Positions 81 through 27,583 of a stretch of 37,445 nt of DNA are shown here, piece after piece (position 1 is the first letter of the stretch; each line of letters begins with the position of its first letter). Source of the stretch: Gemmatimonadota bacterium (lineage in GTDB: Bacteria > GCA-2686955); the NCBI GenBank assembly GCA_002686955.1, contig NYZA01000239.1:1-37445 (forward strand), written 5' to 3'. The notes under the pieces were generated by a model that was not told the DNA's origin, ran no database searches, and saw only the letters and a list, made by a program, of their open reading frames with translations. Position numbers and translations under genes: made by a program.

Positions 81-1792
81 CCGCCGGCGCCTGGCTGGTC
101 ATCGTGGCCTTGGGCATCCCGCCGGAATCTCCCGCTCTAGGTCTGCGGGAGGCCCGCGCGCTGGAGGTGAACGGCCGCCTCGAAGCTGCGGCGGCGCGGG
201 TCGAATCGCTCTTTGTCCACTTCGGTCCCGACAAAGGGGTTGGGGCCGCGTTGTTGCGAATTCACCGCGCCGCCGAAGACACGAAGGCGCAGTGGGATCT
301 GCTCCAGCGCTGGCTCGCGATCGATCCGTCGAACCCCACTGCATGCGACGCAATGGCGCAACTACAGATGCGGGCTGGCGATCCCGAGGCGGCGCTGAAG
401 ACGATCCGGGGCGTGGGGCGGCGCGGATCGGCCTCCGCCCAGGGACGGATGGCCCGCATCATGACGCGCCACGGCTTTTCCGATGACGCACTTCAGACCT
501 ATTTCAACGCACGCGGGGCTTTTGGCGACGACCGCCTCCATGCACGAGAGGTGGCGCGCTTGCTGGCGCGTCGCGGTGAGATCGAGGCGGCTGCATTGGA
601 GTTGGTCAACGCCTGGGATGAAAGGACCGCCTCGAGTCTTCGCTCGGAGCTCTTTGCTCTGGAACGGCAGTCGCCCGGTCGAATCGATCTGCCGGCGGTA
701 GCATCGATTCCGGGGGAGGGGGCGGCCCTCGCGGCACGATTGGCGCTGGGGCGAGGAGATGTGCAGGTGGCGCTCGGCCATCTGGAGAGCGTCGAATGGC
801 TGCCTCCCCATTCACTGGCCGCTCTGCTCGAGGCAGCGGAGGCGTATGCCCGCCGGGGCGGCGGGGAATGGGCGACGAAGGCAATGGAGCGGGCGCGATC
901 GTTTCTGCCGAGCGGCCCGAGAAGAAGAAATGTGTTGCTGCGTCATGCGCGCGTCATGCTCGATCTTGGCTGGATCGACGCCGCGAGCGACGCGCTCGAG
1001 GGGATCGTCGCCGCCAATAGAGAGATAAAGGGCGAGCATGCCGCTCTCGCCGGCCGACTCGCTCTCGAATCGGGTCGACCCTTCGATGCCCGGCCCCTTC
1101 TTCGCCGCGCGCGGGACAGTGCGGAGCTGCTCGCGAGAGCACGGGCCGAGGCCGTCCGAGATCTGATCGAATGCCATCTTGCGCTCGGCGAGCATGCCGA
1201 GGCTTTCGCGGAGGCGGAATCGTTGGCCTCCGCCGCCGACACAGCGCCCGAGTCGCGGGCAAACGCACTTCTGATGGCCGCCGAGGCGCGCCTGCACGCG
1301 GGCGATTCCGTCGACGCCGCCCGCCGCTTCCGCTCGCTCGTTCGCGTCTCCGCCGAGAGCGCCGCCGCCAACGATGCCCTCGAGCGCGCCTTCCTCTTGA
1401 CGCAGTTGGGATTCGCCTCCGCGCCCGACACCGCGGGCGTTCTCGAACCTTTCCTGGGCGCCGAGAGACACCGTCTCGCCCGCCGCCACGAAGAGGCGGC
1501 CGAACTCTACGAGAAGTGCGTCGAGACCTTGCCTGAGATTCGGATCGAAGCGGCGCTTCTCGGGGCGGAATCTCGCCGCGACTCGGGTGATCCCCTCGCG
1601 GGCGCTGCCCTGTTGGATCGGATCATCGGCACATTGGGTCCCGGTCCCGATCTGCCCCGTCTGCTCTACTCGCGCGCGCTCCTGCTTAACGACCCGGAGC
1701 AGCGGCAAGACGCTCTTCGCCGGCTGATCATCGATCATCCCGAGAGTCCGGCCGCCGAAGAGGCTCGCCTCCGGATCGAACGGGAGCCGTAG
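77..1792 (+). CDS. TPR-repeat protein, exported
   Basis: 571-aa ORF, GTG start, hydrophobic N-terminus, Ala/Leu/Arg-rich helical repeats typical of TPR. Confidence 0.8.
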   Translation: MTAGAWLVIVALGIPPESPALGLREARALEVNGRLEAAAARVESLFVHFGPDKGVGAALLRIHRAAEDTKAQWDLLQRWLAIDPSNPTACDAMAQLQMRAGDPEAALKTIRGVGRRGSASAQGRMARIMTRHGFSDDALQTYFNARGAFGDDRLHAREVARLLARRGEIEAAALELVNAWDERTASSLRSELFALERQSPGRIDLPAVASIPGEGAALAARLALGRGDVQVALGHLESVEWLPPHSLAALLEAAEAYARRGGGEWATKAMERARSFLPSGPRRRNVLLRHARVMLDLGWIDAASDALEGIVAANREIKGEHAALAGRLALESGRPFDARPLLRRARDSAELLARARAEAVRDLIECHLALGEHAEAFAEAESLASAADTAPESRANALLMAAEARLHAGDSVDAARRFRSLVRVSAESAAANDALERAFLLTQLGFASAPDTAGVLEPFLGAERHRLARRHEEAAELYEKCVETLPEIRIEAALLGAESRRDSGDPLAGAALLDRIIGTLGPGPDLPRLLYSRALLLNDPEQRQDALRRLIIDHPESPAAEEARLRIEREP

Positions 1793-4700
1793 CCGCAGGG
1801 AGCAGAACACGAAATACCGTACCCCGCTCCAACGCGGGCTCCACCAAGATCCGCCCTCCACACTCGTCCACGATCTTCTTCACGATCGAAAGCCCGAGCC
1901 CGGTCCCCGAGGTCTTGGTCGAGAAGTACGGCTCGAAGAGCTTCTGGCGAACCTCCGGCGATATGCCGGGACCGTCGTCCGAAACGCGCAGCTCCACGCC
2001 GGACACCTCACCGCCGATCTCCGTCGATCGCACCTCCACCCTCACCTGGCCGCCGCCTTGGGCGGCCATCGCGTCGCGGGCGTTCTCCACCAGGTTCAGC
2101 ACGAGGCGAGCAACGTCTTCACGCGCGATGCGAACCGGCGCGGTCTTCGCTTCGACCTTCACCGATAGGTCCACCACCTGCTCCGACGCGCCCTCATAGA
2201 TTCGCAGGGCATCCGACACAGCGTCACCAAGATCGATCGCGCTTCGGCCCACCGTCTCCGGCCGCGCCATTCGGCTGAATTCGCCGCTGATTCGGCGCAG
2301 GCGCTCGATCTGCTCCACTATCACGCCCACGCTCTCTCGAAGGGTGCGCCCGAAATCCTCGGAGCGCCGGTCATCGTCGTAGGCGTAAAGCAGATTCTGG
2401 GCCTGCAGCTTCATCGGGGTGAGTGGGTTCTTGATCTCATGGGCGACCTGCCGCGCCATCTGCGCCCAGGCGAGCATCCGTTGAGACTGGATCAAATCGG
2501 TGAGATCCTCGGCCACCAGCAGCACGCGACCCCCGGGTCCCGAGTCACCGATCCGAGTCAACGAGACACGCAGGGTGCTGTCCTCACCGAAGGGGATCTC
2601 CTTCGACACGGCTCCGGTGCGGCGAAAGGCCTCGATCAATGCGTCGACACCGGTGAGATCGCTGCGGCCGAGAGCGGCTTCGATCCCTCCCACGAGGGGC
2701 CGGCCCTGGCCTAGAAGGGTGTGCGCCGCGCGATTCGAGAGGCGGATCCGTCCTCCAGCGTCGGCCGAGACGACTCCCGCCTCGAGGTGCTCGATGATCG
2801 CCTCGAGGGCGCTACGCTGCGCCTCGAGCTCGTCGCGATTCTCGGCGAGCGATCGCGACATGCGGTTGAACGCCGTCACCAGGCGGGCCAGCTCGTCCCG
2901 GCCCTGCACCTCCACCTCTTCGCCCAAGGCGCCCGCGGAGATGCGCGCCGTCCCGTGGATGAGCCGTTGGAGGGGATCGCTGATTCTGCGAGAGAGGATC
3001 AGACCCGCGGAGACGGCGAGCCCGAGCCAGACGAGCGAGAGGCTGATGATGAGTGAGATCGAACGGGCGGCTTCGCGGCTCTCTCCGAGCTGGCCGGAGT
3101 GGGGCAATGAGACCGCCAATGCGCCCACGACGATGACGTCGTCGAGACGCAGCGCCCTGAAGACCGTCAGGCGCTCTCCGAGGCTCTCGAGCTCCGAGGT
3201 GATCAGCCCCGGTCGGCCGCGACCGAGCAGCGCCCGCCAGACCTTGCTCGGCAAAAGCTCCGGCACGAGGCGCGCCGCGACGAGCTCGGGTCGTGACGTG
3301 CCGGCCAAACCTTCTCGCCCGTAGACTCGCACTTCGTTGAGAACGAGGGCGTGCAGGCGCTCGCAGGTTTGACGCCCGAGGGCCCTGTAGCCGACCGTAC
3401 AGCCGGTCAGGCGGCCGTCGCGGGCGGGGAGGGGGCTGACGAGAACCAGCGCGGGTTCTCCGTCGAGCTCCTGATAGAAGGTGCGGCTTTCTCCGTTCTC
3501 CAAGACGGAGTTCAGCACTTCCCACGGCACGGACGCGGTTCTCCCGGAGCGGGCACGCTCGATGCCGCTGGCGTCGTAGATCCGCGAGCCGGCAAGTCGG
3601 GGCTGGCCGTTGGTGCCGGCCGGTAGCTCGCCCTCGACCATCCCCCAGGGAGCCGGGGCCTCCGCGCCCGCCGCGAGCCAATCGACCAGCGCTTCGCTTT
3701 CCTGCAAGAGGGAGCGGGCCAGCTCCAGCTCCAGATCGAGCTCAAGCGCTCCGAGGGCGAGAGAAGCCTGGTGCTCCAGATCTGTGCGCAGCGCGTCATC
3801 CCGCTCCCGGGTGAGCTGTTGCACGCCCGCCGTGCCCCAGAAGACGATCGGGAAGACAGCCACCGCAACGATCGCCAGCATCAGGCGAACGCGGAACTGG
3901 CCGAGCAGGTGCGGTATCCGCCGCGCCCAACCCCCGGCCAGAGCGATCAAAAGCCAAAAGGCGAAGAGCACGCAGCCGTGAACCGCCACGGCATCGAGGG
4001 CGAGGGCGGCAAGGTCGGGGTGCGGTCCGACCGGCAGACCGAGCCCCAGCACTTCGCCGCTCGGCTGCAGAGACCAGTGTAGGCGATAGGCTCGATCCCC
4101 GAGCATCGCGTCGCGCCATCCCCCCGGCAAAGCTCCGCCGCCGGTGAAGAGCCCTCGCGTCTCTTCCGGAAGCAGGTCGCCGATCGGAGCATCGGGTGCG
4201 TTCGAATCGACCAGAACACCGTTGCGGTAGCGGAGCACGACCGGATCGGCGCCCCAGCGAGAGAGTCGCCGGCTGAGCTCTCCCGTGCCGGTCCCAACCA
4301 ATGCGGGCCCATCCGGGAGGATTGTGACCGAGAGTCGCCCTTCCCCGACCGATGTCTCGATCGGAGCGGTCGCCACCAACATCTCCCATTCACGCGACCC
4401 GATCTTGCGGAGCACGCGGCGCACCGAGATCTCCTCTCCGGCGGCCGTGGCCGGCGAACCGATCGAGACGAGCCCAAGCGTTCCGGGCATATCGACCCGA
4501 AAACGGGACAACAGCCTGCCCTCCGGGTCGAGGATCTCGATCCTGCACGGGCGCCGGCCACCGCTCAGCCCGGAAGCGAGCCAGGCGTGGAATGCAGCCT
4601 GACCCCGGGCCGCAGTGCCCTCGATGACGCGCTGGATCCGGCCATCTGCCAGCATGTCGGACACGGCGGACTCGAGGATCGAGAGCTCGTACCCCTCCCG

Positions 4701-6326
4701 CTGGTGAGACCAGCGCCGCGCCTGTTCTTCGGCGAAAAACTGGAAGTCCTTTCGCTGCTGCTCCTTGAGAACCGCCGCGCTGGCCAGGCCGATCAATACG
4801 ACGACCGCGACCAGCCACGGTCCAACGACACTTCTCCGGCGCACGAAGGCATTGGCGCTGCCGGTCAAGGCGGCGGTGGTGGCCGCGAGCAGCCACCCCG
4901 CGGAGGAAAGCGGGGCGCATGCCAGGGCGACCAGGGCGGCTGGAACGAGGCGCGGCAGACGGCGCCTGGTTGCGCCCGGAAGGGCGGAGAGGAAGACGAC
5001 TCCACAGCCGGCTGTGGTCATGACGAACGCGGAACCGAGAAGCACCACCGAGACGGCGACCGAGAGCACCGCGGGATCGCCCAGGGTGGTCAGGTCGACG
5101 AAGGGAGGGTGACCGGCCGCCTCCGCGAACGCGGCGGTCCATTCAGTCCAAAGCACCGCGGCGACGACGGTCAAACCCGCGGCTGGGAGCGCCAGCAACG
5201 CCGGCAGTGCTCGATCCCGCCTGCGAATCCAGCGGGAGGAATTCCTGAATGCCAGGGCGAGCGCGAGATTCAGCGCGAGAAAGGTGAGTGCCGCGTCGCC
5301 TGGGCTGGCCAAGATCGTTGCCAAACCGGCCGGGAGCTCGGATGAGAGCAGAACGGCGAACTCGGCCGGATCGCGGGCCGCCTCCCCCAGGATCGGCACA
5401 TCGAGAAGCAGAAAACGGGCAACGAAGAGAATTCCGCAGCCGAGCATCCAGCCCCTCAGGCCGTCTCGGCGGCGAAGAGGGGGGATCGCCAGGCAGAGCG
5501 ACGCGATCAGTCCGACCGCCAACACGCCGACCCGGCGCGCGCCGCCCGGTAGTGGAGGGGCCGAGGGTGGGACATTGAGTGTGGCGAGGGGCGTCCCGGT
5601 TCCTCCGTCGAGATCGACGGCGATGGCGTTCGGATCGTAGGTCACGAGGGTATCGTGGAAGCGCAGACCCTCCACGGGAGGCACCGCCGGACGGATCCCC
5701 CCTCTGAGTAGAGGCTCCACCACCGCCAGGGGTCGGCCCACGACGACAGCCCCACCCCCTTCGATCGGAGCCACCGCGCGAACTAGTGTGTATGGCTCAT
5801 CCAGCCAAACGGCGATCTTAGTGCCCTCTTCGGGGATCGACTCGCCCCTACCGCCATAGGCCGCGGGGGTCCATCCCGCCCAGGCCACGAGCTCCCCATC
5901 CGCCGCCCTCACCACCGCCCCCACCGCGTCGTCGCGGGTCGCTGGCGGCATCAGCGCGTCCAGATGCTCGAAGGCGGCGATCCGAGAACCGGTCGCGACC
6001 GACTCACGCAGCCAGGGATCCGAGGCCACCCATTCGGCATCCTCGACGCACCGAAGAACGACATCTTCGAGGATCGGGTCGATCCGGTCGAGCGTGCTGG
6101 GCGACTCCGGCTCGGGCAACGCCACGCCCAATATGGCGAGCGCCAGCGCGGTCAGCGAAGTGGGCCGCGTCAAGCCGAGCCGATGGAGCGGACCGATCCA
6201 TCCCAGGGCGGCCACGAGGGCCAGGGCCACGGGGATCCCCATCGGCCATGCCGAGGGGAAGAGCGCCAAGAGCAGAAGCACGGCCCCGACGCCGTAGCCG
6301 GGACCGCGATCGGAGCGGTTTTCCAT
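1728..6326 (-). CDS. NtrY-like multi-TM sensor histidine kinase (HAMP, PAS, HisKA, HATPase_c)
   Basis: HAMP segment (LSRRISDPLQRLIHGTARISAG), H-box (ARQVAHEIKNPLTPMK), N-box (NLVENARDAM), G boxes (DDGPGIS, GTGLGLSIVKKIV); many TM segments. Confidence 0.93.
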   Translation of the reverse strand: MENRSDRGPGYGVGAVLLLLALFPSAWPMGIPVALALVAALGWIGPLHRLGLTRPTSLTALALAILGVALPEPESPSTLDRIDPILEDVVLRCVEDAEWVASDPWLRESVATGSRIAAFEHLDALMPPATRDDAVGAVVRAADGELVAWAGWTPAAYGGRGESIPEEGTKIAVWLDEPYTLVRAVAPIEGGGAVVVGRPLAVVEPLLRGGIRPAVPPVEGLRFHDTLVTYDPNAIAVDLDGGTGTPLATLNVPPSAPPLPGGARRVGVLAVGLIASLCLAIPPLRRRDGLRGWMLGCGILFVARFLLLDVPILGEAARDPAEFAVLLSSELPAGLATILASPGDAALTFLALNLALALAFRNSSRWIRRRDRALPALLALPAAGLTVVAAVLWTEWTAAFAEAAGHPPFVDLTTLGDPAVLSVAVSVVLLGSAFVMTTAGCGVVFLSALPGATRRRLPRLVPAALVALACAPLSSAGWLLAATTAALTGSANAFVRRRSVVGPWLVAVVVLIGLASAAVLKEQQRKDFQFFAEEQARRWSHQREGYELSILESAVSDMLADGRIQRVIEGTAARGQAAFHAWLASGLSGGRRPCRIEILDPEGRLLSRFRVDMPGTLGLVSIGSPATAAGEEISVRRVLRKIGSREWEMLVATAPIETSVGEGRLSVTILPDGPALVGTGTGELSRRLSRWGADPVVLRYRNGVLVDSNAPDAPIGDLLPEETRGLFTGGGALPGGWRDAMLGDRAYRLHWSLQPSGEVLGLGLPVGPHPDLAALALDAVAVHGCVLFAFWLLIALAGGWARRIPHLLGQFRVRLMLAIVAVAVFPIVFWGTAGVQQLTRERDDALRTDLEHQASLALGALELDLELELARSLLQESEALVDWLAAGAEAPAPWGMVEGELPAGTNGQPRLAGSRIYDASGIERARSGRTASVPWEVLNSVLENGESRTFYQELDGEPALVLVSPLPARDGRLTGCTVGYRALGRQTCERLHALVLNEVRVYGREGLAGTSRPELVAARLVPELLPSKVWRALLGRGRPGLITSELESLGERLTVFRALRLDDVIVVGALAVSLPHSGQLGESREAARSISLIISLSLVWLGLAVSAGLILSRRISDPLQRLIHGTARISAGALGEEVEVQGRDELARLVTAFNRMSRSLAENRDELEAQRSALEAIIEHLEAGVVSADAGGRIRLSNRAAHTLLGQGRPLVGGIEAALGRSDLTGVDALIEAFRRTGAVSKEIPFGEDSTLRVSLTRIGDSGPGGRVLLVAEDLTDLIQSQRMLAWAQMARQVAHEIKNPLTPMKLQAQNLLYAYDDDRRSEDFGRTLRESVGVIVEQIERLRRISGEFSRMARPETVGRSAIDLGDAVSDALRIYEGASEQVVDLSVKVEAKTAPVRIAREDVARLVLNLVENARDAMAAQGGGQVRVEVRSTEIGGEVSGVELRVSDDGPGISPEVRQKLFEPYFSTKTSGTGLGLSIVKKIVDECGGRILVEPALERGTVFRVLLPAATAPVRSGGEPLRRPDSRDDR

Positions 6327-6363
6327 AGAGCGGTTCAGCGATCGGCGCGCGAACGATCCGCGG

Positions 6364-6421
6364 GCACGATCGAAGCGATCATCCGATATCTGGCCGGAAA
6401 CCGCTACCGTACAGCAGGATC
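6364..6421 (+). repeat. 58-nt imperfect direct repeat, copy A
   Basis: Ungapped match to 14681-14738, 50/58 identical (gcacgatcgaagcg.tc.tccgata.c.ggccggaaaccgc..ccgtacagc.gga.c). Confidence 0.85.
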
Positions 6422-7225
6422 AGGATTCGCCGCCGAATGCGTGCCCGAGCCGTGCGAATCATGGGTTTCCATCCCCGGCCGAGCGACACCGAAGCGACGA
6501 TGCAAGGTGGGCTCGAGCCCAACGCGAAAAAGCTGCTCATGGCGTGCCCGGATGAACCTCCGCCATCCGGAATAGCGAAAACTCCGATTGCGCTCTCGAA
6601 ACTGAGCCAATTCCTCGCCGAGATCACCTCCGTACTCGCTGAGTTGGCGAGAGAAGCAGTCTTGTTTTGCGTGCTCATAGAGCGCCAGATCGAGGCGATT
6701 CACGGAGCGGACGCGCTCCAGCATCTCCTCCCCAAGGTCGGCGTGGCGAATGCGTGGGCACGCCTCTTCGTGGATGCCGGTGTAGCGCTCGTATTGGAAG
6801 CAGCGATCGTCGGCGCCCAGCCACCGCCGGAGCAGGATGAGAGACTCGTCGAAGCGCTCCGTGAGACCAACGAAGGCCAAGGGTCCCTCCAGGAAGCGTC
6901 GGGCCAGATCCAGGTCGGGTCCTCCCGCCAGGCGGGTGGTCTGGTAGTTCGCGAAACGCGGCTCGCCGAGAAAGCTCTCGAGGGTCCAGGGAACGCCCAT
7001 GCGCAAGCGCTGGTAGTTCAGATGCGAGAGGTAGCGCTGGACCGGATCGCGCAGGAAGGTCAGGTAGCGAGGCTGGCGACCAAGCACGCCGCCGTAATCG
7101 AGCCATGGGCGTGTGGTGTGGCCTCCGATCCCCGGCGTCTTGGGCAGCCAACGTAGGATTGCGCCAAGCTCCTCCGGGGGGAGGCAGTGCAGCGGATCGT
7201 TGGCCCAGTAGTACCAGGGGCGCAC
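6404..7225 (-). CDS. Sulfotransferase family protein (5' end disrupted or mis-started)
   Basis: Contains YLTFLRDPVQRYLSHLNYQR-type 3'-PSB region. The 5'-PSB motif (FFCLIHIERTGGSTLSGLLKNAFPG) lies upstream of the called ATG in the same frame (to ~7311), but that frame has no ATG/GTG/TTG before the next stop. Confidence 0.75.
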   Translation of the reverse strand: MRPWYYWANDPLHCLPPEELGAILRWLPKTPGIGGHTTRPWLDYGGVLGRQPRYLTFLRDPVQRYLSHLNYQRLRMGVPWTLESFLGEPRFANYQTTRLAGGPDLDLARRFLEGPLAFVGLTERFDESLILLRRWLGADDRCFQYERYTGIHEEACPRIRHADLGEEMLERVRSVNRLDLALYEHAKQDCFSRQLSEYGGDLGEELAQFRERNRSFRYSGWRRFIRARHEQLFRVGLEPTLHRRFGVARPGMETHDSHGSGTHSAANPDPAVR

Positions 7226-7516
7226 GGTCAGGAAGCCAGGGAAGGCGTTCTTGAGTAGGCCGCTGAGCGTGCTTCCTCCCGTGCGCTCGATATGGATCAG
7301 GCAAAAAAAGGGACGCGCGATCGTTGTCTTCTCTTTCTCACGTTGGTGTTGAAGTCGCTTTGCTGGTTGATCGGTCTTCGGGCGATGAACACGAGCCCGG
7401 ATTAACGTCGATCCCGGCGAAAGCCCTGCGTTGGCCGCTCAAGTTGTTGCTCGCGCGGTCGAATTCCCACCCATGTACAAAGGGAAGAGCGGCGTGCAGG
7501 CGCTACGGAATCACGC

Positions 7517-8677
7517 ATGAACCACGAACTGACAAAGCTCCTCCGAGAGCTCGACCAACGGCGCGAGAAGCTCCAGTCGGGTCCGGCTGTGATCTTTCTG
7601 CAGACGGTTCGAGGTTGCCCTCTGACCTGCGCGATGTGTCAGTTCGAGCCGAGCCGACCGGAGCGGATCTCCAGGGAGCTCTTGGCCAAGGTCGAGCCCG
7701 CATTTCCGAATCTCGAGGTTCTGGGGATTCACGGCTATGGCGCCCCCCTTCTGGGCGATCTCGACTACTTCGTGCGGCAGTCGTTGGAGCACGACTTCGT
7801 GATCCACATGAACACGACAGGGTTCTTCTTGACCCGTGAGCGAGCCGACTTGCTGGCCCGAACACGCCTTTCGATCCGCTTCTCTATTCCCGCAGGCACG
7901 GCGCCTACTTACGCCAACATTATGGGACGGGAATTCGGACGGGTGCTGGACAACGTCGCCTATCTCGTCGAGCGCACTCAGAGAACGGATCGCCCCGCCG
8001 ATCTCTGGTTCAGTTACATCGTAATGGAAGACAATCTGGACGAAATCGACGCCTTCCTGCATCGCGCTCACGACTGTGGCATCAGGATCGTCCAGTTCAT
8101 GCGCCTCAGGCCTCAGCCCCGAAAGCGCACTACGATTCGAGCCAAGGACCGAGACTACGGCTTCAACTACAGTCGGCAGGCGCATCCCAGTGTGCGAGAG
8201 AGGTTCATCGAACGCTTGCCGGAGATCCAAGCCATTGCCGCCGATCTCGGCATTGAGATCGAGCACGGCAGTTTGGTGGAGCGATTGGGCAACCCCAATG
8301 CGCTGGCGCAACTGGTCAACAACACCAGCTCACGCTACTTGCAGAGGAGAGTTCTCCCGTTCAAGACGGCCCGGGGGATATGTGTGGCGCCTTGGATCGG
8401 ACAGTTGAGCATCAACCAGAGCGGAATCGTATGCCTTTGCTGCGCCAGTGCCTTTCCGGTGGGAGATCTGAACCACTCCAGCCTGGACGAGATCTGGAAC
8501 TCGAAACACATGCGACGCGTTCGTCGCTCCTTCGCCCGGGAACGCTTTCCGCATCTCTGCGGATACTGCCGCGGGTTCGACCTCAAAGAGTACCCACGAA
8601 ACACTGTCTTCCGTAAGAGCTCGGAGAAACACCTGGAATGTACACAGAATCCGATCCAGGTCGCGTCTGCCTGGTAA
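7517..8677 (+). CDS. Radical SAM protein with SPASM-like C-terminus
   Basis: CxxxCxxC motif GCPLTCAMCQF; C-terminal Cys cluster (ICVAPW...GIVCLCC...LCGYCRGF). Confidence 0.93.
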   Translation: MNHELTKLLRELDQRREKLQSGPAVIFLQTVRGCPLTCAMCQFEPSRPERISRELLAKVEPAFPNLEVLGIHGYGAPLLGDLDYFVRQSLEHDFVIHMNTTGFFLTRERADLLARTRLSIRFSIPAGTAPTYANIMGREFGRVLDNVAYLVERTQRTDRPADLWFSYIVMEDNLDEIDAFLHRAHDCGIRIVQFMRLRPQPRKRTTIRAKDRDYGFNYSRQAHPSVRERFIERLPEIQAIAADLGIEIEHGSLVERLGNPNALAQLVNNTSSRYLQRRVLPFKTARGICVAPWIGQLSINQSGIVCLCCASAFPVGDLNHSSLDEIWNSKHMRRVRRSFARERFPHLCGYCRGFDLKEYPRNTVFRKSSEKHLECTQNPIQVASAW

Positions 8678-9840
8678 TCCCGTCGGTCAGGGAAGTTCGC
8701 GAAGACTACCTTCGCCACGTTCCAGCCGAGGTAGACCTCATCGTCGTCGAGGACCGGGCTCATGGGCGGATCGTGCCTTTTAGGCCCAACATGAAGGTGT
8801 TTGACCACCAGTCGCAAGATCGAATCATGGGCGCTGATCGGGATCTGATCCCGCGTGGCGGCGCGGCTTGTCGCAATTTCGGTTTCTATTTAGCATGGCG
8901 TGAGGAATATAAAGTCATCCTGACACTGGACGACGACTGCATCGTTCCGTCCGGTTATCTTCAGGCTCATGGTGGTCTCGGGCGCCATATCGATCTCCCG
9001 ACGGAGTCTTGTGCCGGATGGTACAACACCATTGCCGCTCTGGATCTACCTCCATCCCGCTATGCGCGGGGCTATCCCTACGAGGAGCGCTTCGAGAAGA
9101 GAATCCAACGCCGAATGACGCAAGGGCGAGTGGTGTGCAACCACGGGCTCTGGAGTCGACACCTCGATTTCAATGCCGTGGATCGCTACGCACAGCAACA
9201 CTATTCTGGCGAAGAGGCGATGGTGAGGCTGCGCGAGCCCACACTGCGGATCTAGGACAGCAAATTCCCGTTCTGCGGTATGAACTTCGGCTTCACACGC
9301 GAGATCGCGCCGATCGTTACACAAGTCCCACAGAATATCGAGATCATGGATCGGTATTCGCTCTGGCGCTTCGATGACATCTGGGGCGGCTACATCCTGC
9401 AGAGCCTTATCGCGCTCAAGGGTGATGCCATCACCATCGGCGATCCCGTAGTGGTGCACACCAAGGCCGGAGATTTGCGTCGCGAGGTCTCGGGGGAACA
9501 CTACGGACATCTCGTTTCGCCCTATTTCTACGATTTGGTGGACCGGGCCGTCGAAGACTGCTCGCCGATGGCACCGTACGCCGAGGCCTATGCTGCATTC
9601 GCTCAGGGGTTCCGCGGTGCCGTGGATCGGGGGGTTCCTAGTGGCTATCGCCCCCTGCTTCGTGCCTTGGGGCTCTTCTTCGAACGCTGGTCCGAGCTCT
9701 TCCTTAGCGACTCTGCCCTCGCCAGTGCTCCGTTCGCGCGCCCCGCCGACGCGAATATGTGGTCCATTCAGACAGGTCAAGCGGGGGGAACGGGGACGCT
9801 TCCCTTTTCTACGTCGGGCGACGGGACCGAATCCCCATGA
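8638..9840 (+). pseudogene. Reversibly glycosylated polypeptide (RGP / UDP-arabinopyranose mutase-like) gene interrupted by in-frame TAG at 9253-9255
   Basis: ORFs 8638-9255 and 9280-9840 share a frame and are separated only by TAG plus 8 sense codons (DSKFPFCG). Together they carry LDDDCIVP, RGYPY, HGLW, FPFCGMNFGFTRE, WRFDDIWGGYI and HTKA in the RGP family order. Confidence 0.85.
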
Positions 9841-10688
9841 GGCAGAGCACCCTCCCGAGCGCGGGCACCGATGGCTCCGTCACCGGGGCGCCGGCTTGCC
9901 GCAACGGGGAACCCGGCGGGCGCCGAGTTCGATCTTCCCCGAAGTTTCACATCGACGCACGGTGCTTCCCTCACAATCACTATCCTCTGCTCAAGGCCCT
10001 CTATCGCGCGCCCGCATACCGCCTGGCTCCTTATCTGCACCGCTGGGGATTCTCCGCCGACGCGATCAGTTGCATCGGCTTTCTCCTGGGGGCCGGGGCC
10101 GCCCTTGGTCTCGCGCTCGGGGAGGCATCGATCTCTCTGGTCGCGGTGTGTCTTCTGCACCTATCCATGCTGCTCGACTATGCGGACGGTGAAGTTGCGC
10201 GCCTCGCGGGGGAAGGGACGGTACACGGCGCGTGGCTCGAGATCGGGCTCGATCGACTGCAGTTCAATTTGATTGTGGTCGGACTGGCGATCGGGGCGAT
10301 TCGCACGGGCACGGCTCCCGACCAGGTCTGGCTGGCTGCTTTCGCCGCTCTCTCCGCCTTCATCTTTGGTCGCTACCTCACCCAATGGCGCCGAGAGCTG
10401 ATCAAAGACCCTCTGCGCGATCTCCGGCAAGGGATCGATGAGGCGCGACCACGCTGGTGGCGCACTTCAATCGTTGTTCTATGGCGCGAGCTCAATCTCT
10501 ACTACGAAGTTTGGTTGTGGGGCGTCTCGATTATTGTACTCGTCTGGGGTCCAGCGTGGGCGCTGTGGGCCACTGCAATCTATGGTTGGCCTCGTAGCCT
10601 CGCGCAGTGGTTTGTTGGTCTGAAGCGCGCGCTGGACATCGATCGGGCGCGCATTCATGGTCAGCTCAGCCGGAATACAAGGGAATGA
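9837..10688 (+). CDS. CDP-alcohol phosphatidyltransferase family protein
   Basis: Signature DYADGEVARLAGEGTVHGAWLEIGLD; multi-TM. ATG at 9837 overlaps the upstream TGA (ATGA); the ORF track uses 9759. Confidence 0.88.
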   Translation: MRQSTLPSAGTDGSVTGAPACRNGEPGGRRVRSSPKFHIDARCFPHNHYPLLKALYRAPAYRLAPYLHRWGFSADAISCIGFLLGAGAALGLALGEASISLVAVCLLHLSMLLDYADGEVARLAGEGTVHGAWLEIGLDRLQFNLIVVGLAIGAIRTGTAPDQVWLAAFAALSAFIFGRYLTQWRRELIKDPLRDLRQGIDEARPRWWRTSIVVLWRELNLYYEVWLWGVSIIVLVWGPAWALWATAIYGWPRSLAQWFVGLKRALDIDRARIHGQLSRNTRE

Positions 10689-12004
10689 TGATGAGATCCA
10701 AGCTCGAGCGACATTGTCGCCACCTGGTTATCGTGGGTCGGTCCGTTGCTGTCGAGAACGTCGACGGAAGCCTTCGGATCAAGGCAGAATGTCACGACTA
10801 TATTCGCGATATCTCCATCCCCTTCGAAAAGACGACGGTCATTCAGCCCGTATTGGGCTCGGGGGACCCGAGTCTGCGGGACCAACTCTCCGGCTACCGT
10901 CACCCTCTTCCACCCCGCGTCGATTTCGTCCCCATCCCCGATGACTTCACCAAACAAGATGGCTTCTTGCGCTCCGTACAGCGAGTCGCCCGCCAGCTGA
11001 ACACGATTCGCACGCATTTGCGTGTTGCCGACGCGGCGTTGATCAACACTCCCTCCTATCGAGGCTTTGGCGCGCTGGTCTGGGCCCGAATCCATGGTGT
11101 CCCCTTTGTCGCGCACTGCGCCGCGCGTCTTCATCGTCGCAGCTACGATCCGCTGGAACAGAAGGGGGTGCGCGCTCTGGCGACGTGGATCAAGGAGTTG
11201 GGGCAGAAGGTCTTTGAGCTGAGCGCACTCGCTTTCGCTCCAGCGCGAACCGTGGATGGTCCCGATCTACTGGCGACCTTCGGTCACCTGCCTGGGATCA
11301 CGAAACACTCTCCCCCCATCGTCAGTTTCGACTCCGAGAGAGTGCGGCAGCTACGTGCGAAGCGCGAGGAGCCGCCGCGGTCCTCCCCAACCATTCTGCA
11401 CGTCGGAGCCCTGGTGCCCCGCAAAAACATCGATACCATCATTGCCGCGGTGGCGGAGCTCAGAGCATCGCATGCCGGCGCTCGTCTCGTCCTGGTCGGG
11501 ACCTCCGCCTCCTCCCACAAAGAGGAGCTCGAGGAGTTGGCGAGGGGTCTCTTGCCTGCGCCCGGCGCATGCGAGTTCACCGGATACGTCGGCGATCCCG
11601 ACGAGAAGCACCAGCGTTTCGCCGGGGCCGATCTGCTGGTCTGCGCCAGCTACGCCGAAGGTTTTCCCCGCGTGATCTACGAAGCGTTGGCGGCGGACAT
11701 TCCGGTCGTGGCAACCGATCTGCCGGGCTACCGAGAAAACATGCCCGATGGTGCCATGGAGCTTCTGGAAGCTGGCAAGGATCCGGTGGCCTTGGCGGCG
11801 AGCATGCGTCGTGCGCTGACGCCCCCCCGGGTCAAGGAGATGCAGCTCCGGGGAGGAGCGCGGGCACGGGCGATGATGTCCCAGAGCTCTCCAGCATTGG
11901 CACTCGCGCTGCTCGCGGCCCAAGGAGTACCGGTCGATGTGGGGCCGGCCCCATGCACAGCTGCCGGCACGTCCAACTCCGGGCGCGCCGGATGCCGGGC
12001 GTGA
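10685..12004 (+). CDS. Glycosyltransferase family 4 (GT-B)
   Basis: GALVPRKNIDTIIAAV, EFTGYV, ADLLVCASYAEGFPRVIYEALAADIPVVATDLPG. ATG at 10685 overlaps the upstream stop. Confidence 0.92.
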   Translation: MMMRSKLERHCRHLVIVGRSVAVENVDGSLRIKAECHDYIRDISIPFEKTTVIQPVLGSGDPSLRDQLSGYRHPLPPRVDFVPIPDDFTKQDGFLRSVQRVARQLNTIRTHLRVADAALINTPSYRGFGALVWARIHGVPFVAHCAARLHRRSYDPLEQKGVRALATWIKELGQKVFELSALAFAPARTVDGPDLLATFGHLPGITKHSPPIVSFDSERVRQLRAKREEPPRSSPTILHVGALVPRKNIDTIIAAVAELRASHAGARLVLVGTSASSHKEELEELARGLLPAPGACEFTGYVGDPDEKHQRFAGADLLVCASYAEGFPRVIYEALAADIPVVATDLPGYRENMPDGAMELLEAGKDPVALAASMRRALTPPRVKEMQLRGGARARAMMSQSSPALALALLAAQGVPVDVGPAPCTAAGTSNSGRAGCRA

Positions 12005-12049
12005 ACGTGCGCGGAACCCCTCTCCCTTGAGCCGGTGCGACCCCACGCG

Positions 12050-13498
12050 ATGACCCACACGCTACGAGACCAGCGAGGAACTTCGCTGCTCTTGCTAGCA
12101 TCGGCGCTGCTCGGGTTTGGATTGTCGTCACCCATGGGCGGTCTTGTCGCTCTCGGCGTACTGTTCGTTTCGACCTACGCAGTCGCCCTTCTGTGCCCCG
12201 CCTGGTATCCGCTAGCACTGTGGTTCGCGGCAGCTCCCATTCTGCGCTTTTTCATCAAAGTGAACCTACCGGCCGGAGTGCCTGACCTCAACGCCGAGCG
12301 CATACTGCTGCTCTTCGCCATCGTCGCCATTGCTCCTCGCCTCTTCGAGTGCGGCGTCCGCCTCCGCTCGAATGCCACCTTCCTGCTGCCGACAGCCGGC
12401 TTGGCGCTCTACGTCCTACTACGAACACTATCGATCCGGGACTCTCCGGCGGGGATCGCTGAAGCAGGGCGGCTCGCGCTGAATGGGGTCTGGGTGCCCT
12501 TCTTCCTGTATCTCCTGACCCTTGCGACAGTGTGCCGGCGCGAGCAGATGGATGATCTCATGCGAGCGGTCATCGCCGTTCTGGCGTTGGGCGGGGCTTT
12601 GGGAATCGCGGAGGTCTTGCTCAACCTCGAGCAGAACATCATGGTTCATCTTGGCGGTGGCAACGATGAAACCTACCAGGTCTGGCATAGTGGCGGCCTG
12701 CGTCGGGCCGCCGGTCCCTTCGCCAATCCCGCCACACTTGGTGGCGTCGCCGGCCTGGCGTCCCTGTTCGCGCACCGCAGATTGCTCGAGGTGAAGACAG
12801 CCCCGGGCGCGACCGCCCTGATGACCTGGTCAGCGCTCTGTCTCTTCTTCTGCATGACCCGGGGGCCGTGGGTAGCGACGCTTGCCGGCCACCTCGTACT
12901 TCTGTCGGTCACGCGCCGCCTCTCCGTGATGGTCAAGGTATTGATGGTCGCGGTGCTCTTCGTCGGCCCCCTGCTCGTCGGAACGGCTAGGCATCTCGAG
13001 AAGGCCCAGCAACGCGTTCATGATCAGGGCACCATTTATGCTCGCCTCGCTCTGGCGGACAGAGGGCTACAGATGATCAGTGAGAGCCCGGGGCGCGGCC
13101 AGGGCATGGGCGCTTTCAACGCGCTGAACAACACCTATCACTCTGCGCTCGCCAACCCGCAACGGCTGATCAGCCACAACACCTACATCACCACGGCGGT
13201 GGATTCCGGCCTGGTTGCGTTGGCCCCTCTCTTCTTCGCGATCGGCTACTTGCTACGGCAGGGTTGGCAAAGAGCGAAACGCACGAACCGGTGGGGGCGG
13301 GGCCGGATTGCCTTTCTGATGGGAGGCATCACCCTTTTCCTGGTGCAAGGCATGTTTATCGACTTGACCCACGCAAACTACGACGGCGCGCTCTTGCTTT
13401 GTCTCATGGGCATGCTGATCATCGAATTGGGTTTGCCCCGCGACAAGCGTGCTACCAGTGCACCCAGGGTCCTGGCTCTGGAGCGCAAGGCGTGGTAG
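12050..13498 (+). CDS. O-antigen ligase/polymerase-like membrane protein
   Basis: About 10+ hydrophobic segments; RGPWVATLAGHLV and a late loop with GQGMGAFNALNNTYHSAL...SHNTYITTAVDSGLVAL typical of Wzy/WaaL. Start ambiguous (12035 or 12050). Confidence 0.85.
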   Translation: MTHTLRDQRGTSLLLLASALLGFGLSSPMGGLVALGVLFVSTYAVALLCPAWYPLALWFAAAPILRFFIKVNLPAGVPDLNAERILLLFAIVAIAPRLFECGVRLRSNATFLLPTAGLALYVLLRTLSIRDSPAGIAEAGRLALNGVWVPFFLYLLTLATVCRREQMDDLMRAVIAVLALGGALGIAEVLLNLEQNIMVHLGGGNDETYQVWHSGGLRRAAGPFANPATLGGVAGLASLFAHRRLLEVKTAPGATALMTWSALCLFFCMTRGPWVATLAGHLVLLSVTRRLSVMVKVLMVAVLFVGPLLVGTARHLEKAQQRVHDQGTIYARLALADRGLQMISESPGRGQGMGAFNALNNTYHSALANPQRLISHNTYITTAVDSGLVALAPLFFAIGYLLRQGWQRAKRTNRWGRGRIAFLMGGITLFLVQGMFIDLTHANYDGALLLCLMGMLIIELGLPRDKRATSAPRVLALERKAW

Positions 13499-14706
13499 CT
13501 CCACACCTGAGCGGACGAAGCTCCTTGCCGGAGTCTTGCCCTCGAAAACGAAGCGACGGCCCCCTGCGCTACGCGATCATCACGAATGACTTTCGGGCGG
13601 ATCGAGGGGCGGAGATCGTGGTTCAACGCCAAGCCCGAGAGCTCGAAAGACGCGGTGTCCAGGTCTATCTCGCCGGAGTTGGAGCCGACGGGCCCCTACC
13701 GCGACACTTGGGCCTGGCCGCCGAGCGAATTGCGCGCTTCGAGCGGGGGGGAGTCGGCGCCGTGATCGGCCTGGCTCGTTGGTTGCGCGGAAGCCGCTGC
13801 GAGGTGGTACACAGCCATTTGGATCGCGCGAACACCCTCGCCATTCCCGCCGCCTGGCTGGCGGGCGTGCGGACCATCCTCTCGACGCAGCACACCATCT
13901 GGCCCGTCCGTCGCCGGCGTCGTCTCTGGCTCAATCGAATCCTGGCGCGGTTCGCATCGAGAGTGGTGGTCGTCAGCGCCGCCATGGGAGAGTGGCTGGT
14001 GGCCGAGGAGGGGATTCCGGCTTCAAAGATCCTGCACGTGCCAAATCCCGTGTCGGTACAGGACGATCTACGCACACCGACCTTGGCTCGGGCGCAACTC
14101 GACTTGCCACCGCGCGTTCCGATCATCTCGAGTGTCGGGGCGTTGGTCCCGGAGAAGGACCCCTTCCTGCTGCTGCGGGCGTTTGCGCGGGTGCGCAAGG
14201 CGCTTCCTCGGGCCCTGCTCGTCGTGGCCGGCGATGGGCCTCTGCGCGCTTCGCTCGAGTCGGTTTCCCAGCGGAGGTTCCCCGCGGGCAGCGTGCGTTG
14301 GCTTGGCCATCTCGCGGATCCCTCTACCGTGTTGCGTGCCGCCGATCTCTTCGTCCTGTCGTCGAAGAGGGAAGGCTTGCCTCTGGTTCTTCTGGAGAGC
14401 GCGGTGCAAGGGGCGCCACGAATCGCCACCGCCGTGGGCGGAGTGCGTGACACCATTCGCGATGGCGAGACCGGCTTGCTGGTTGCGCCAGGAGATTGCG
14501 AAGCACTGGCGGGCGCCATGCTCGAGCTTCTGCGCAACCCGGACCGTGCCCGGGAGATTGCGCTGGCCGCTCGGGATGAAGTCTCGCGCAAGCACGACGT
14601 GCGCCACAGTGTCGACACAATCCTGCGCCTGCTGCGCGACGATGCGGGAGCTGCGATCGAGCATCGGTGGAAAGCGCGGCGCACGATCGAAGCGCTCCTC
14701 CGATAG
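13492..14706 (+). CDS. Glycosyltransferase family 4
   Basis: GALVPEKDPFLLLRAF, DLFVLSSKREGLPLVLLESAVQGAPRIATAVGGVRDTIRDGETGLLV. GTG at 13492 overlaps the upstream stop; the ORF track start 13264 lies inside the previous gene. Confidence 0.9.
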   Translation: MVAPHLSGRSSLPESCPRKRSDGPLRYAIITNDFRADRGAEIVVQRQARELERRGVQVYLAGVGADGPLPRHLGLAAERIARFERGGVGAVIGLARWLRGSRCEVVHSHLDRANTLAIPAAWLAGVRTILSTQHTIWPVRRRRRLWLNRILARFASRVVVVSAAMGEWLVAEEGIPASKILHVPNPVSVQDDLRTPTLARAQLDLPPRVPIISSVGALVPEKDPFLLLRAFARVRKALPRALLVVAGDGPLRASLESVSQRRFPAGSVRWLGHLADPSTVLRAADLFVLSSKREGLPLVLLESAVQGAPRIATAVGGVRDTIRDGETGLLVAPGDCEALAGAMLELLRNPDRAREIALAARDEVSRKHDVRHSVDTILRLLRDDAGAAIEHRWKARRTIEALLR

Positions 14707-14738
14707 CCGGCCGGAAACCGCCCCCGTACAGCGGGAGC
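14681..14738 (+). repeat. 58-nt imperfect direct repeat, copy B
   Basis: Ungapped 50/58 match to 6364-6421; contains the stop codon of the second GT4 gene. Confidence 0.85.
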
Positions 14739-14779: not shown

Positions 14780-16423
14780 ATGTCGCCGCCCCGCTCCGTC
14801 CTGATCGGAATCCTGGTTATTCCCTGGCTCGCCACCGCGCTGGTCGCGACCGGCTGGATCGGGCTCCCCGAAGACCATGTCTTCTCCGGTTTCTGCCAGG
14901 GTGACGAGCTCGTCTACACCGCCAAGTCGCTCGAAATCATCGAGGGCGGGAACCGCTTTACCTACGGAAACCCCTTCTCGGAAGACCCCGATACGCCTGC
15001 CGTTTACGTCAGCCTGATTTTCACCGCGATCGGCTGGATCTGGCGGTGGACCGGGATCGAACCGGTCTGGATTCTGTGGGGGGGGCGGATCGTCGGAGGC
15101 TCGATTGCGCTGGCATTGGCGTGGCGACTGATTCGGCTCTGTGTCGGCGAGAACCCGAGCGCCGCCCGCTGGTGTTTCTATTGGGTGGCGCTGGGGAGCG
15201 GACTCGGGTGGATCTTCACATCGACACATGGCGCGATGCTGGAGCTACACCGTTCCTTCGATCCGATCTTCGCGGGAGGGGGCGGCGAGGGCCTGCAGCT
15301 CTTCGGATGGCTGGCGGACCGGGTCAGACCGACCGTCCCGAAGCACTACTCTCCAGGGATCTTCACGACGATCGTGCACTCCTACGCGGCGATATACCAG
15401 GCGTTCTTCATCGCCACCTGCCTCGCCCTCGCCGAGCGACGACGGACCGCCGCGGTAATCCTCTTCACCCTCACCTATTGGGCACACCCGTGGGCCGGAT
15501 CGATGCTGCTCTGCCTGGGGGGCACCTTCTTGGCGATCGAGCTGGCCCTCGAACGCGACAGGGCCGATCTCGTGGCTGGAGTGCTCTTCGCCCTGATCGG
15601 GTCTGTCTGGCTCTACTACTACACAGCCTTCCTCAACTCGATCCCGGAGGCGCGGCTGCACGCGGAACAGGTACGGAATCCCCCGTACGCATGGCGAACA
15701 CCGACCACCTACTTGCCCCAGTACATCGGAGTGTGGGGGACCGCGATCCTCGCGCCAATCGTGCTCCTCCCGATGCGGGGTACTTGGAGGCGCGTCTTGC
15801 GATCCCGCGCGGAGCGGCTAGTGGTCATCTGGGTCCTGATCTGCTTCATCATTCTGAACAACTTCCGCTTCCTCGACTCACCATTGCAGCCCGATCAACT
15901 CGGTGGGCGGTGGCTCTGGCTGCCTCTGGTGATTCTGGCGACGATGTCACTGATCCGGTTTCGGCCGACGCCGAGCCGGCGAGCTCTCGCTCTGATGGTG
16001 TTGGTTTCCCTTCCGGAAAGTGCGCGACTCTCATACGACTACTTCGTTCGCGGCGTCAGACACAGTCGCGTCCTGGTTCGGCCCACGAGCATGACCGCGG
16101 TCGTGCAAGCGGTCTCGGAGCTACCGGGGCGCCGATTCGTCTTCGCGGACGATCCCGACATAGCCAACGTCATCGTTGCCCACACACCTCATCGCGCCTA
16201 CTACAGCCACTGGAACGAGACCCCTCACCTGATCGAGCGGCAAGAGCTCCTGGCTCACTTCGCGAAGGCGCCATCGGTCTCGATCCCCGACAGCCTGGGT
16301 GCGGAACTCTGGGTCTTGAGCACCGAGTCGGCATCGCGCGTGAGCCCTAACATCGCGGAGCTCGGAACGGTCCTGCATCGATCGAACGACTACATCGTGC
16401 TCGAACGTCGTCCTGGACCCTGA
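14780..16423 (+). CDS. Multi-TM membrane protein, putative GT39/GT-C-like glycosyltransferase
   Basis: MSPPRSVLIGILVIPWLATAL... with many TM segments. The 14132 ORF start lies inside the preceding GT gene, so start 14780 is chosen. Confidence 0.65.
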   Translation: MSPPRSVLIGILVIPWLATALVATGWIGLPEDHVFSGFCQGDELVYTAKSLEIIEGGNRFTYGNPFSEDPDTPAVYVSLIFTAIGWIWRWTGIEPVWILWGGRIVGGSIALALAWRLIRLCVGENPSAARWCFYWVALGSGLGWIFTSTHGAMLELHRSFDPIFAGGGGEGLQLFGWLADRVRPTVPKHYSPGIFTTIVHSYAAIYQAFFIATCLALAERRRTAAVILFTLTYWAHPWAGSMLLCLGGTFLAIELALERDRADLVAGVLFALIGSVWLYYYTAFLNSIPEARLHAEQVRNPPYAWRTPTTYLPQYIGVWGTAILAPIVLLPMRGTWRRVLRSRAERLVVIWVLICFIILNNFRFLDSPLQPDQLGGRWLWLPLVILATMSLIRFRPTPSRRALALMVLVSLPESARLSYDYFVRGVRHSRVLVRPTSMTAVVQAVSELPGRRFVFADDPDIANVIVAHTPHRAYYSHWNETPHLIERQELLAHFAKAPSVSIPDSLGAELWVLSTESASRVSPNIAELGTVLHRSNDYIVLERRPGP

Positions 16424-16551
16424 TCAAGTACCCTCTTTTCGGGCCAGCGCGAAGCAAGACGATCCCACGGGCAGATCGATGCCGCGCCCTGGTCATGCGG
16501 GTCGGCGGATTCGCCGTGGCTGCGAAACGAGCGCCCGCGCGCCGGATCGAG

Positions 16552-17097
16552 TCAACGCCGAGAAGCCGCCCGAATCTCGTCGACGACCCAGGTACCCGCT
16601 TCACGCCTGAGCGAGATCACCAGGCGGGAACGGTGCACGCCTCCAGTTCGCTCATCCACATAGCGCCAGTCGAAAACGGCATGCGGGGCGTCTCCGCTCG
16701 CCCGATAGCGGTTGAGATCAAACTTCCGGGTCTGTGTACGGTCGAAGAGGCGTTTGAAGAAGAAGTAGCCCTGCGCCGGCCCGTACTCGCCCGCGCGGGC
16801 CGCGCCCCCCACATCGATCGCCACACGTCTGTCACCGAAGGCCCTGAGCAGCAACGAGAGATCCTCGGTCCGCCACGCCGTGGCGATCTGCTCCAGCAAT
16901 GCGCGCGGACTGAGCTCGCGGGTCGAGCTCTCCGCCGCGTCGGATCGACCGCGCGTGGGCGCGGCTGGCGTAACCGTACGGGCGGATCCGGGCGCCTGCG
17001 CGCTCGCAGCCAAGGCGCCCGTCAAAATGAGCAGCGATGAAAGTAGGGCCAGTCTCACGGTCGCTCCAAAGGGAAGGATCACCTTCCTCCCCCTCAA
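16552..17097 (-). CDS. DUF4783-like exported protein
   Basis: Signal peptide plus NTF2-like region (FFFKRLFDRTQTRKFDLNRYR...AVFDWRYVDERTG); located after secDF. Confidence 0.55.
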   Translation of the reverse strand: MRGRKVILPFGATVRLALLSSLLILTGALAASAQAPGSARTVTPAAPTRGRSDAAESSTRELSPRALLEQIATAWRTEDLSLLLRAFGDRRVAIDVGGAARAGEYGPAQGYFFFKRLFDRTQTRKFDLNRYRASGDAPHAVFDWRYVDERTGGVHRSRLVISLRREAGTWVVDEIRAASRR

Positions 17098-17143: not shown

Positions 17144-18082
17144 TCACGCATTGGCCTTCACCCGCGGTGCCTTGACCGGTGCAACCGCGCGGGGCTTGCG
17201 CTCGTTCCATTCGAAGAGAACCGGAGAGGCGACGAAGATCGAGGAGTAGGTTCCGACCAACACGCCCATGAGCAGCGCGAGCGCGAAATCCTGGATCACC
17301 GAACCACCGAGGATCATCAGGGTCGTTACCGGGATCAAGGTGGTCACCGAGGTGATCACGGTTCTGCTGAGCGTTCGGTTGATGCTCGCGTTCAGAACCT
17401 CACCGTAAGGCCTGCGCCGCATGAGCTTGGTGTCTTCTCTGATCCGGTCGAACACGACGATCGTGTCGTTGAGGGAGTAGCCCACGATCGTGAGCAGGGC
17501 CGCGACGATCGGCAGACTCATCTCTCGGTTCAACAGCATCAGGAGGCCGACGACGACGAGCACGTCGTGGGTGAGTGTCACGATCGCCGCGATTCCGAAG
17601 CGAAACTCAAAACGGAGCGTGATGTAGGCCACGATGGCGAGCAGAGCCAGAACGATCGCCTTGATCGCCTGCCCCTTGAGCTCGGCCCCCACCTTCGGTC
17701 CGACCTTGTCGGCCGAGAGCACGGAGACGGTGGGATCGATCTGGGTCTTGAGGGAGCCGAGGATCTCATCGCTGCGGTCGTCGCCCCCTTCCACGCCCTC
17801 GACCGGCACGCGCACCAGAATCTCGGCACCGTCCCCGACCGTCTGGACTTCGGCGCCTGCGATATCGAGCGAAGAGATCGCCCCGCGCACCGATCCGATG
17901 GTCGGAGGTGATTCGAATCTCAGCCGAAGGGCCAGCCCTCCCGCGAAATCGATCCCGTACTTCAATCCTCCGTTCGAGACGATCGAGGCCATCCCGATCA
18001 GAATGACCAGCGCGGACAGGCCGTACGCAATACGTCGTTTCGCGATGAAGTCGATCGCGGTGTTCTTGAATATCTGCAGCAT
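17144..18082 (-). CDS. secF: Protein translocase subunit SecF
   Basis: IDFAGGLALRLRF, GYSLNDTIVVFDRIRED, NRTLSRTVITSVTTL. Confidence 0.97.
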   Translation of the reverse strand: MLQIFKNTAIDFIAKRRIAYGLSALVILIGMASIVSNGGLKYGIDFAGGLALRLRFESPPTIGSVRGAISSLDIAGAEVQTVGDGAEILVRVPVEGVEGGDDRSDEILGSLKTQIDPTVSVLSADKVGPKVGAELKGQAIKAIVLALLAIVAYITLRFEFRFGIAAIVTLTHDVLVVVGLLMLLNREMSLPIVAALLTIVGYSLNDTIVVFDRIREDTKLMRRRPYGEVLNASINRTLSRTVITSVTTLIPVTTLMILGGSVIQDFALALLMGVLVGTYSSIFVASPVLFEWNERKPRAVAPVKAPRVKANA

Positions 18083-18094
18083 GGATTGCTCTCT

Positions 18095-19819
18095 CTAGAT
18101 GCTCAAGCGCCGCATGCGCCCGGTGCTGTACAGGAAGTCGAAGGCGATACGCGAGCAGAACACGGCGGTGAACACACTCATGACGATTCCGATCATCAGA
18201 GTCACCGCGAAGCCTCGAATCGGCCCGCTGCCGTAGTAGAAGAGGATCAAACCGGTGAGGAATGTCGTGATGTTCGCGTCGAGAATCGTCTTGAAGGCGC
18301 GCTCGTACCCGGTCTGAATCGAGGCCACGATCGACTTGCCGGTTCGAAACTCTTCTCGAATCCGCTCGAAGATCAAGACGTTGGCGTCGACCGCCATCCC
18401 CATCGTAAGCACGATCCCCGCGATTCCGGGCAGAGTGAGCGTAGCCCCGAACATCGCTAGCGCCGAGAGGATCAGAACGACGTTCACGACCAGGACCGCG
18501 TTCGCGATCACACCGGAGACACGGTAGTAGACGAACATGAAGACGATCACGAAGGCCAGGCCGAAGAGACCCGCGCTCGCCCCCGCGTCGATCGAATCCT
18601 GGCCGAGTGTCGAGCCGACCGTGCGCTCCTCTACGATCTTGATCGGTGCGGGGAGCGCTCCGCTTCTCAGCACCACCGCGAGGTCGTTCGCCTCATCGGC
18701 GTTGAACGCACCTTCGATCTGGGCCCGGCCATCGGGGATCCGAACCCGCAGCACCGGAGCCGAACGCACCTTACCGTCGAGCACGATCGCCAACTGGCGC
18801 CCCGTGTTGTCGCCGGTGATCTGCGCGAACCGCTTCACGTAATCCGACTTGAAGGCCACCGAGACGATCGGCTCGTTGAATCGTCGCTGGTCGAAGGAGA
18901 GGTTGGCGCGCGAAACCGCGGCGCCGGTGATCTCAGCCTCTCGATTGAGCAGATAGAGGCGCGCGTAGCTCTCGAAGGGGTTGGAGCTGTTCTCCGATTC
19001 CTCGACCACGCCAAGCCGGAACTCCAGCTCATCCGGCATGATGTCGGTGACCTCGGGAAGAGCCAGGATCTCCTCGACCGCCGCGATATTCGGTTCCGGG
19101 ACCGCCAGATTCAGTCCCCCGTCTTCGGTATAGCCGAACGACTGCAAGAGGCTCAGGAAGGGGTGCTCTTCGGCTGAAGCCGCATCGACCGCCGGAGTTT
19201 CCGGTTCGAGATCGGCGAATAGGGCGGCCATGGCGGTATCGACGGCCGCGGTGTCGGCCTCGTCGCTCATCGCGACCATCGGAGGCTCATCGCTCTCGAC
19301 GGGCGCTTCATACTCGGTGGAGGACTCCCGCATCTCCTTGGCGATCTCGTCGATCACGGTCACCAGCTCGCTCGTTCTCGACGATAGGGCCACCAGCTTG
19401 AACTCGAGGAAGGCGGTGCGCCGAACGATGTTTTTGGCCCGCTCGGGGTCGTCGATTCCGGCGAGCTGAACCAGGATCCGCCCCTCGCCCAGAGGCTGAA
19501 TGATCGGCTCTTCGACGCCGAACTCGTCGATCCGATTCCGGATCACCTCGAGCGCCCGGCGGTGGGCGTCCCAGGCCTCCTCTTCGGTCATGTCGGTGGC
19601 GTCGATCTCGACCACCATGTGCATACCGCCCTGCAGGTCGAGCCCCAGCGAGATCGCTTTGGCTTGCAGCTCCTGAAAAGTCTCTGGAGCGGTGTCTTTC
19701 AGCTCGGCGCGGCCCTCCGGCCCCATCTCGATCAGGCGGATGGTGGACCAGAGCCCGGCGATCGCGATGATCAGCATCACGATCGTGGTCCCTAGGCGGC
19801 CAAGGAGTTTCCTGTCCAT
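18095..19819 (-). CDS. secD: Protein translocase subunit SecD
   Basis: LGLDLQGGMHMVVEID, VQLAGIDDPERAKNIV, LTLPGIAGIVLTMGMAVDANVLIFERIREE. Start at MDRKLLGR (19819). Confidence 0.97.
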   Translation of the reverse strand: MDRKLLGRLGTTIVMLIIAIAGLWSTIRLIEMGPEGRAELKDTAPETFQELQAKAISLGLDLQGGMHMVVEIDATDMTEEEAWDAHRRALEVIRNRIDEFGVEEPIIQPLGEGRILVQLAGIDDPERAKNIVRRTAFLEFKLVALSSRTSELVTVIDEIAKEMRESSTEYEAPVESDEPPMVAMSDEADTAAVDTAMAALFADLEPETPAVDAASAEEHPFLSLLQSFGYTEDGGLNLAVPEPNIAAVEEILALPEVTDIMPDELEFRLGVVEESENSSNPFESYARLYLLNREAEITGAAVSRANLSFDQRRFNEPIVSVAFKSDYVKRFAQITGDNTGRQLAIVLDGKVRSAPVLRVRIPDGRAQIEGAFNADEANDLAVVLRSGALPAPIKIVEERTVGSTLGQDSIDAGASAGLFGLAFVIVFMFVYYRVSGVIANAVLVVNVVLILSALAMFGATLTLPGIAGIVLTMGMAVDANVLIFERIREEFRTGKSIVASIQTGYERAFKTILDANITTFLTGLILFYYGSGPIRGFAVTLMIGIVMSVFTAVFCSRIAFDFLYSTGRMRRLSI

Positions 19820-27559: not shown

Positions 27560-27583
27560 CGGATCAATACTCAATCATCCCCC

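Follow-up and report, generated by a model that had tools for sequence, protein, structure and literature searches.

Do the two imperfect direct repeats on either side of a glycan gene cluster mark the ends of a mobile island? The question is raised by a stretch of 37,445 nucleotides from a Gemmatimonadota bacterium (contig NYZA01000239.1; hereafter the window), in which genes for a sulfotransferase, glycosyltransferases and a Wzy-like ligase lie between two copies, A and B, of the repeat. We consider it likely that they do not, and that A and B stem from an old segmental duplication within an insertion that is itself derived, because synteny shows the inserted block to be larger than the region bounded by the repeats. 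The features concerned are the following.

1728-6326, minus strand: NtrY-like sensor kinase, a large protein with HAMP, HisKA and HATPase_c domains; it flanks the insertion on the left and is conserved in the sister genome
6327-16551, no strand: segment absent at the sister's syntenic position (maximal limits; right edge within 16424-16551)
6364-6421 (gapped match 6359-6419), plus strand: repeat copy A, from repeat comparison and BLAST
6404-7225, minus strand: sulfotransferase (Gal-3-O-sulfotransferase family), its C-terminus passing through the palindromic element into copy A
6420-6464, plus strand: left end only of an element of MITE-like family 1, 91% over 44 nt, abutting copy A and cut at about 6464
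7517-8677, plus strand: radical SAM/SPASM protein (Pfam)
8638-9840, plus strand: RGP-like protein, its gene interrupted by an in-frame stop codon (9253-9255)
9759-10688, plus strand: CDP-alcohol phosphatidyltransferase-like protein (Pfam)
10607-12004, plus strand: first GT4 glycosyltransferase (Pfam)
12035-13498, plus strand: O-antigen ligase/polymerase (Wzy_C; Pfam)
13264-14706, plus strand: second GT4 glycosyltransferase, stop inside copy B, true start probably nearer 13560
14681-14738 (gapped match 14675-14736), plus strand: repeat copy B, from repeat comparison and BLAST, internal to the insertion by synteny
14780-16423, plus strand: multi-spanning membrane protein of 547 aa without a Pfam match, part of the insertion (the 14780 gene)
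16552-17097, minus strand: small DUF gene, the first gene past the right edge of the insertion that is conserved
17144-18082, minus strand: secF, adjoining the kinase in the outgroup
18095-19909, minus strand: secD, conserved in the sister and the outgroup

When recomputed, the ungapped identity of copies A and B was 50/58, exactly as the original prediction had it. In a BLAST search of the organism's own 4.28-Mb draft genome, the match became 62 nt at 87% identity when one gap was allowed (6359-6419 against 14675-14736; E 6e-14 to 8e-14 with the whole draft genome searched), and no third copy was found there. Within the window A and B are the sole strong direct repeat, the runner-up being 40 nt at 70%. 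In the sister genome, the best match to the region 6327-6421 had an E value of only 0.015, which is at chance level. The repeat is clearly real, low-copy and above chance, and the dispersed family of unrelated copies that would have spoken against the island is not seen, with two copies in the own genome and none convincing in the sister. It was also correctly predicted that the outermost genes of the cluster end within the repeats (the sulfotransferase stop is at 6404-6406 in A, the GT4 stop at 14704-14706 in B), and the reading frames then quoted for the two copies are right. As for the genes between the copies, the frame of the RGP-like gene is open on both sides of its stop, which may reflect a pseudogene, a sequencing error or two genes.

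The borders of the insertion were determined by synteny. The phylum was represented by two genomes, the own draft and one relative, with no genome of the same genus among them; the relative, here called the sister (G001, 'Gemmatimonadetes bacterium isolate T2_metabat2_scaf2bin.146'), is a fragmented MAG of 900 contigs that is 83% complete. At the corresponding locus of the sister (L022), the N-terminal part of the kinase (40-2637, minus strand) is followed after a spacer of about 200 nt by the DUF gene (2843-3514, minus strand), secF, secD, pdxJ and a deacetylase gene, in the same order and orientation as in the window, where pdxJ lies beyond secD on the minus strand (the names secF, secD and pdxJ were assigned from the sequences themselves). 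In an outgroup from another phylum (G238), the kinase (4531-9270, minus strand) is separated by about 156 nt from secF (9427-10356, minus strand), with secD next and all three co-directional. In the window, a block of 10.2 kb that contains the glycan genes and the 14780 gene parts the kinase from DUF-secF-secD, and most of its genes are oriented opposite to the flanking gene run. Since both the sister and the outgroup show the contiguous kinase-secF-secD arrangement, this is most simply read as ancestral, and the segment from 6327 to about 16551 as a gain in the lineage of the window. Searches of the sister genome gave no match to the sulfotransferase and no homologue of the 14780 gene, and no relative of the latter was found among the genome contigs searched.

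These borders agree only in part with the repeats. The original prediction that the glycan genes form a lineage-specific insertion beside the kinase holds, as the sister has no such block at the syntenic position. The further claim that the repeats bracket the whole island holds on the left, where copy A is at the edge of the insertion; on the right, the insertion extends about 1.8 kb past copy B, which is internal to it because the gained block includes the 14780 gene. No repeats were detected at the right border of the insertion in either genome. The prediction had also proposed an ancestral locus with the kinase divergent from the 14780 gene, and a relative with an empty site carrying a single repeat. 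The former was not seen: the sister is without the 14780 gene, and its kinase stands beside DUF-secF-secD-pdxJ on the same strand. Nor does the kinase-DUF spacer of the sister, which is not of the same genus, or the rest of its genome hold a convincing copy of the repeat. With one fragmented relative and one outgroup, stepwise states between these arrangements would be invisible.

The right end of copy A probably has another origin than recombination between the copies. The sequence at 6421-6464 is dispersed, with eight further copies at 87-91% identity in the own genome. The full element is palindromic, 176 nt in length (117 nt in one case), with inverted ends CCAGGATCC...GGATCCTGG; it occurs at about 20 places in the own genome, including four complete copies, and was not found in the sister genome. 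Four of the five copies examined have 4-bp target duplications (TCCC, GAGG, TCAT and GAGC, read by eye from the flanks). The full copies combine the terminal inverted repeats and the target duplication of a MITE, and the latter shows that the element is mobile. The last base of the alignment of A and B is 6419, and the first base of the element consensus is 6420. Judged from this juxtaposition, the right end of copy A is probably an element junction and not a recombination site, so that a mobile element would account for the boundary with no recombination between A and B. The duplication may once have been longer on the element side, or the element may have landed at its end.

A matching end of the element was also sought before B and at 16424-16552, where scores remained within those of shuffled sequences. 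Weak matches to a right-hand partner after B (reached by 14/300 and 16/300 shuffles) fail across the approximately 20 comparisons made. This led us to reject a composite transposon bounded by copies of the 176-nt family: the left end alone was found, and there is no partner end near B or the right border. Signals of a second element family to the right of 6464 were reached by 1 to 13 of 200 shuffles over many tests and were not accepted. Elsewhere in the own genome, a phytoene-desaturase-like open reading frame (L016, 1964-3388) ends inside the 176-nt element, like the sulfotransferase of the window; the element thus supplies C-termini. A further palindromic family of about 180 nt with GCGCAAGAATAACTT-like ends (L012 102-280, also in L011 and L015) lies within the 176-nt element, inserted after position 47-51.

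The locus resembles three known systems, each incompletely. As in islands flanked by att repeats, a block of genes is enclosed by direct repeats some tens of base pairs long and is lacking in a relative; unlike such islands, the locus has no integrase or tRNA, its repeats have diverged by 13%, and one copy lies inside the block. No integrase or recombinase gene was recognised among the open reading frames of the block or their Pfam matches, and no tRNA was found in the window. Direct repeats are not present at both ends of the insertion, the right edge of which (16424-16551) is beyond copy B. A contrast in composition between inside and outside had been suggested as a further test; the GC content of the block (0.625 and 0.635) falls inside the range of the surroundings (0.626-0.684) or at its lower limit and shows none. 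The family at 6420-6464 is similar to MITEs and other short palindromic transposable elements in its inverted ends, its length of about 176 nt, its non-coding and dispersed nature, its short target duplication and its nested insertions, although the copy in the window is reduced to its first 45 nt. Variable surface-polysaccharide clusters of the O-antigen or capsule type share with the block the GT4 genes, the Wzy-like ligase, the sulfotransferase and the gain of a block beside housekeeping genes. However, the pathway in the block is incomplete, and initiating transferase, flippase and export genes were not recognised.

Among other explanations of the repeat, a two-step history would keep its copies as insertion borders. 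The 14780 gene would have been inserted between the kinase and the DUF gene, and the glycan cluster (6422-14680) later, duplicating a target of about 60 bp in an att-like manner or as a very long target duplication. Such an event leaves just the observed succession of A, cluster and B, and the end of a mobile element is indeed found just inside A on the cluster side. However, there is no element end just inside B, no tRNA and no integrase-like open reading frame in the block, the target duplication of the element itself is 4 bp rather than 60, and the intermediate is seen in no relative; we regard this history as unlikely. Still more doubtful, and scarcely credible to us, is a reading in which the cluster is a present or past mobile unit that produces unusually long target duplications of about 60 bp and is terminated on the left by the end of the 176-nt palindromic element at 6420. 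It is also improbable, somewhat more so than the two-step history, that copy A is the relic of a GT4 C-terminus, the end of the GT4 gene and its downstream sequence having once been beside the kinase. This alternative of the original prediction draws on the open GT4 frame in A and on the overlap of B with the final 8 codons of the GT4 gene, but the best paralogue aligns no further than query residue 444-446, short of the tail that extends into B, and the alignments of other homologues do not reach the last few residues. Furthermore, the sequences preceding B and A have no clear similarity (score reached by 155/300 shuffles), the two substitutions found before the stop both fall on first codon positions and change the amino acid, and the repeat is for the most part situated beyond the stop.

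A regulatory or structural role of A and B upstream of the kinase and the 14780 gene, to which the position of each copy about 40 nt before a start codon (the kinase for A, the 14780 gene for B) might point, is very unlikely in our opinion. The copies are oppositely oriented relative to their two genes, and no Rfam match was obtained for either. Predicted folding is unremarkable for both strands of B and the plus strand of A; the minus strand of A is slightly stable (z -2.4), a property that B does not share. We give equally little weight to an ancestral block that was lost in the sister genome. Two genomes are compatible with either polarity within the phylum, but the outgroup from another phylum has the kinase beside secF-secD on the same strand, and most genes of the block run against the flanking run.

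The explanation that we favour as likely, an old duplication within the derived insertion, can be outlined as follows. The ancestral locus would have had the kinase, (the DUF gene), secF and secD in one direction, and a block of about 10 kb with the sulfotransferase, radical SAM, glycosyltransferase, Wzy-like ligase and 14780 genes was inserted between the kinase and the DUF gene, as synteny shows. Inside this block about 60 bp are duplicated, in two old copies that are now 87% identical, A at the left edge and B about 1.8 kb short of the right edge. A small palindromic element would have landed exactly at the present right end of A, where the junction is observed, and another rearrangement would have cut it short at 6464; this order of events is our reconstruction. 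The duplication was probably a by-product of the assembly or insertion of the block by illegitimate recombination with no dedicated integrase, and the repeat itself is most likely without function. Besides the single fragmented relative, two points weigh against this explanation: the exact junction of A and the element might be a coincidence, and the longer original duplication is conjectural, as the sequence after B has no clear homology to that right of the element (score reached by 25/300 shuffles).

Palindromic elements are not limited to the block. At 34936-35105 the window contains a near-palindrome of about 170 nt, CTAGGAGCCTGTTG...CAACAGGCTCCTAG, most copies of which have TA at either flank. 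The matches listed number 53 in the own genome, a few of them being the inverted arms of the element itself, and the sister has 40, at 76-85% identity; its end pattern, that of the element, gave 62 matches against 1 in a reversed control. Many copies are located at contig ends, and the element probably breaks the assemblies. In L035 (300-641; G000 C167 5599-5940), it is inserted into the 176-nt element near position 93, and the filled and empty site that this provides shows that the TA-flanked element is mobile as well. The kinase-DUF spacer of the sister contains a degraded copy (L022 2759-2842, 75% over 84 nt), and thus the spacer carries different palindromic families in the two genomes. 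A literature search for such elements in Gemmatimonadota returned nothing relevant among its matches. Apart from these families, a short open reading frame in the window (27233-27574, minus strand) resembles part of a repeat-rich protein (25450-27153) through an inverted repeat, I1, of 61 nt at 74%, and is probably a gene fragment.

In the phylum as sampled here by two draft genomes, the locus represents a lineage-specific gain of surface-sugar genes within an otherwise conserved kinase-secF-secD neighbourhood. It is also a warning that direct repeats flanking a gene cluster need not be its borders, as synteny gave others. Furthermore, the abundant palindromic elements may be a main cause of assembly breaks and of rearrangement in this phylum.
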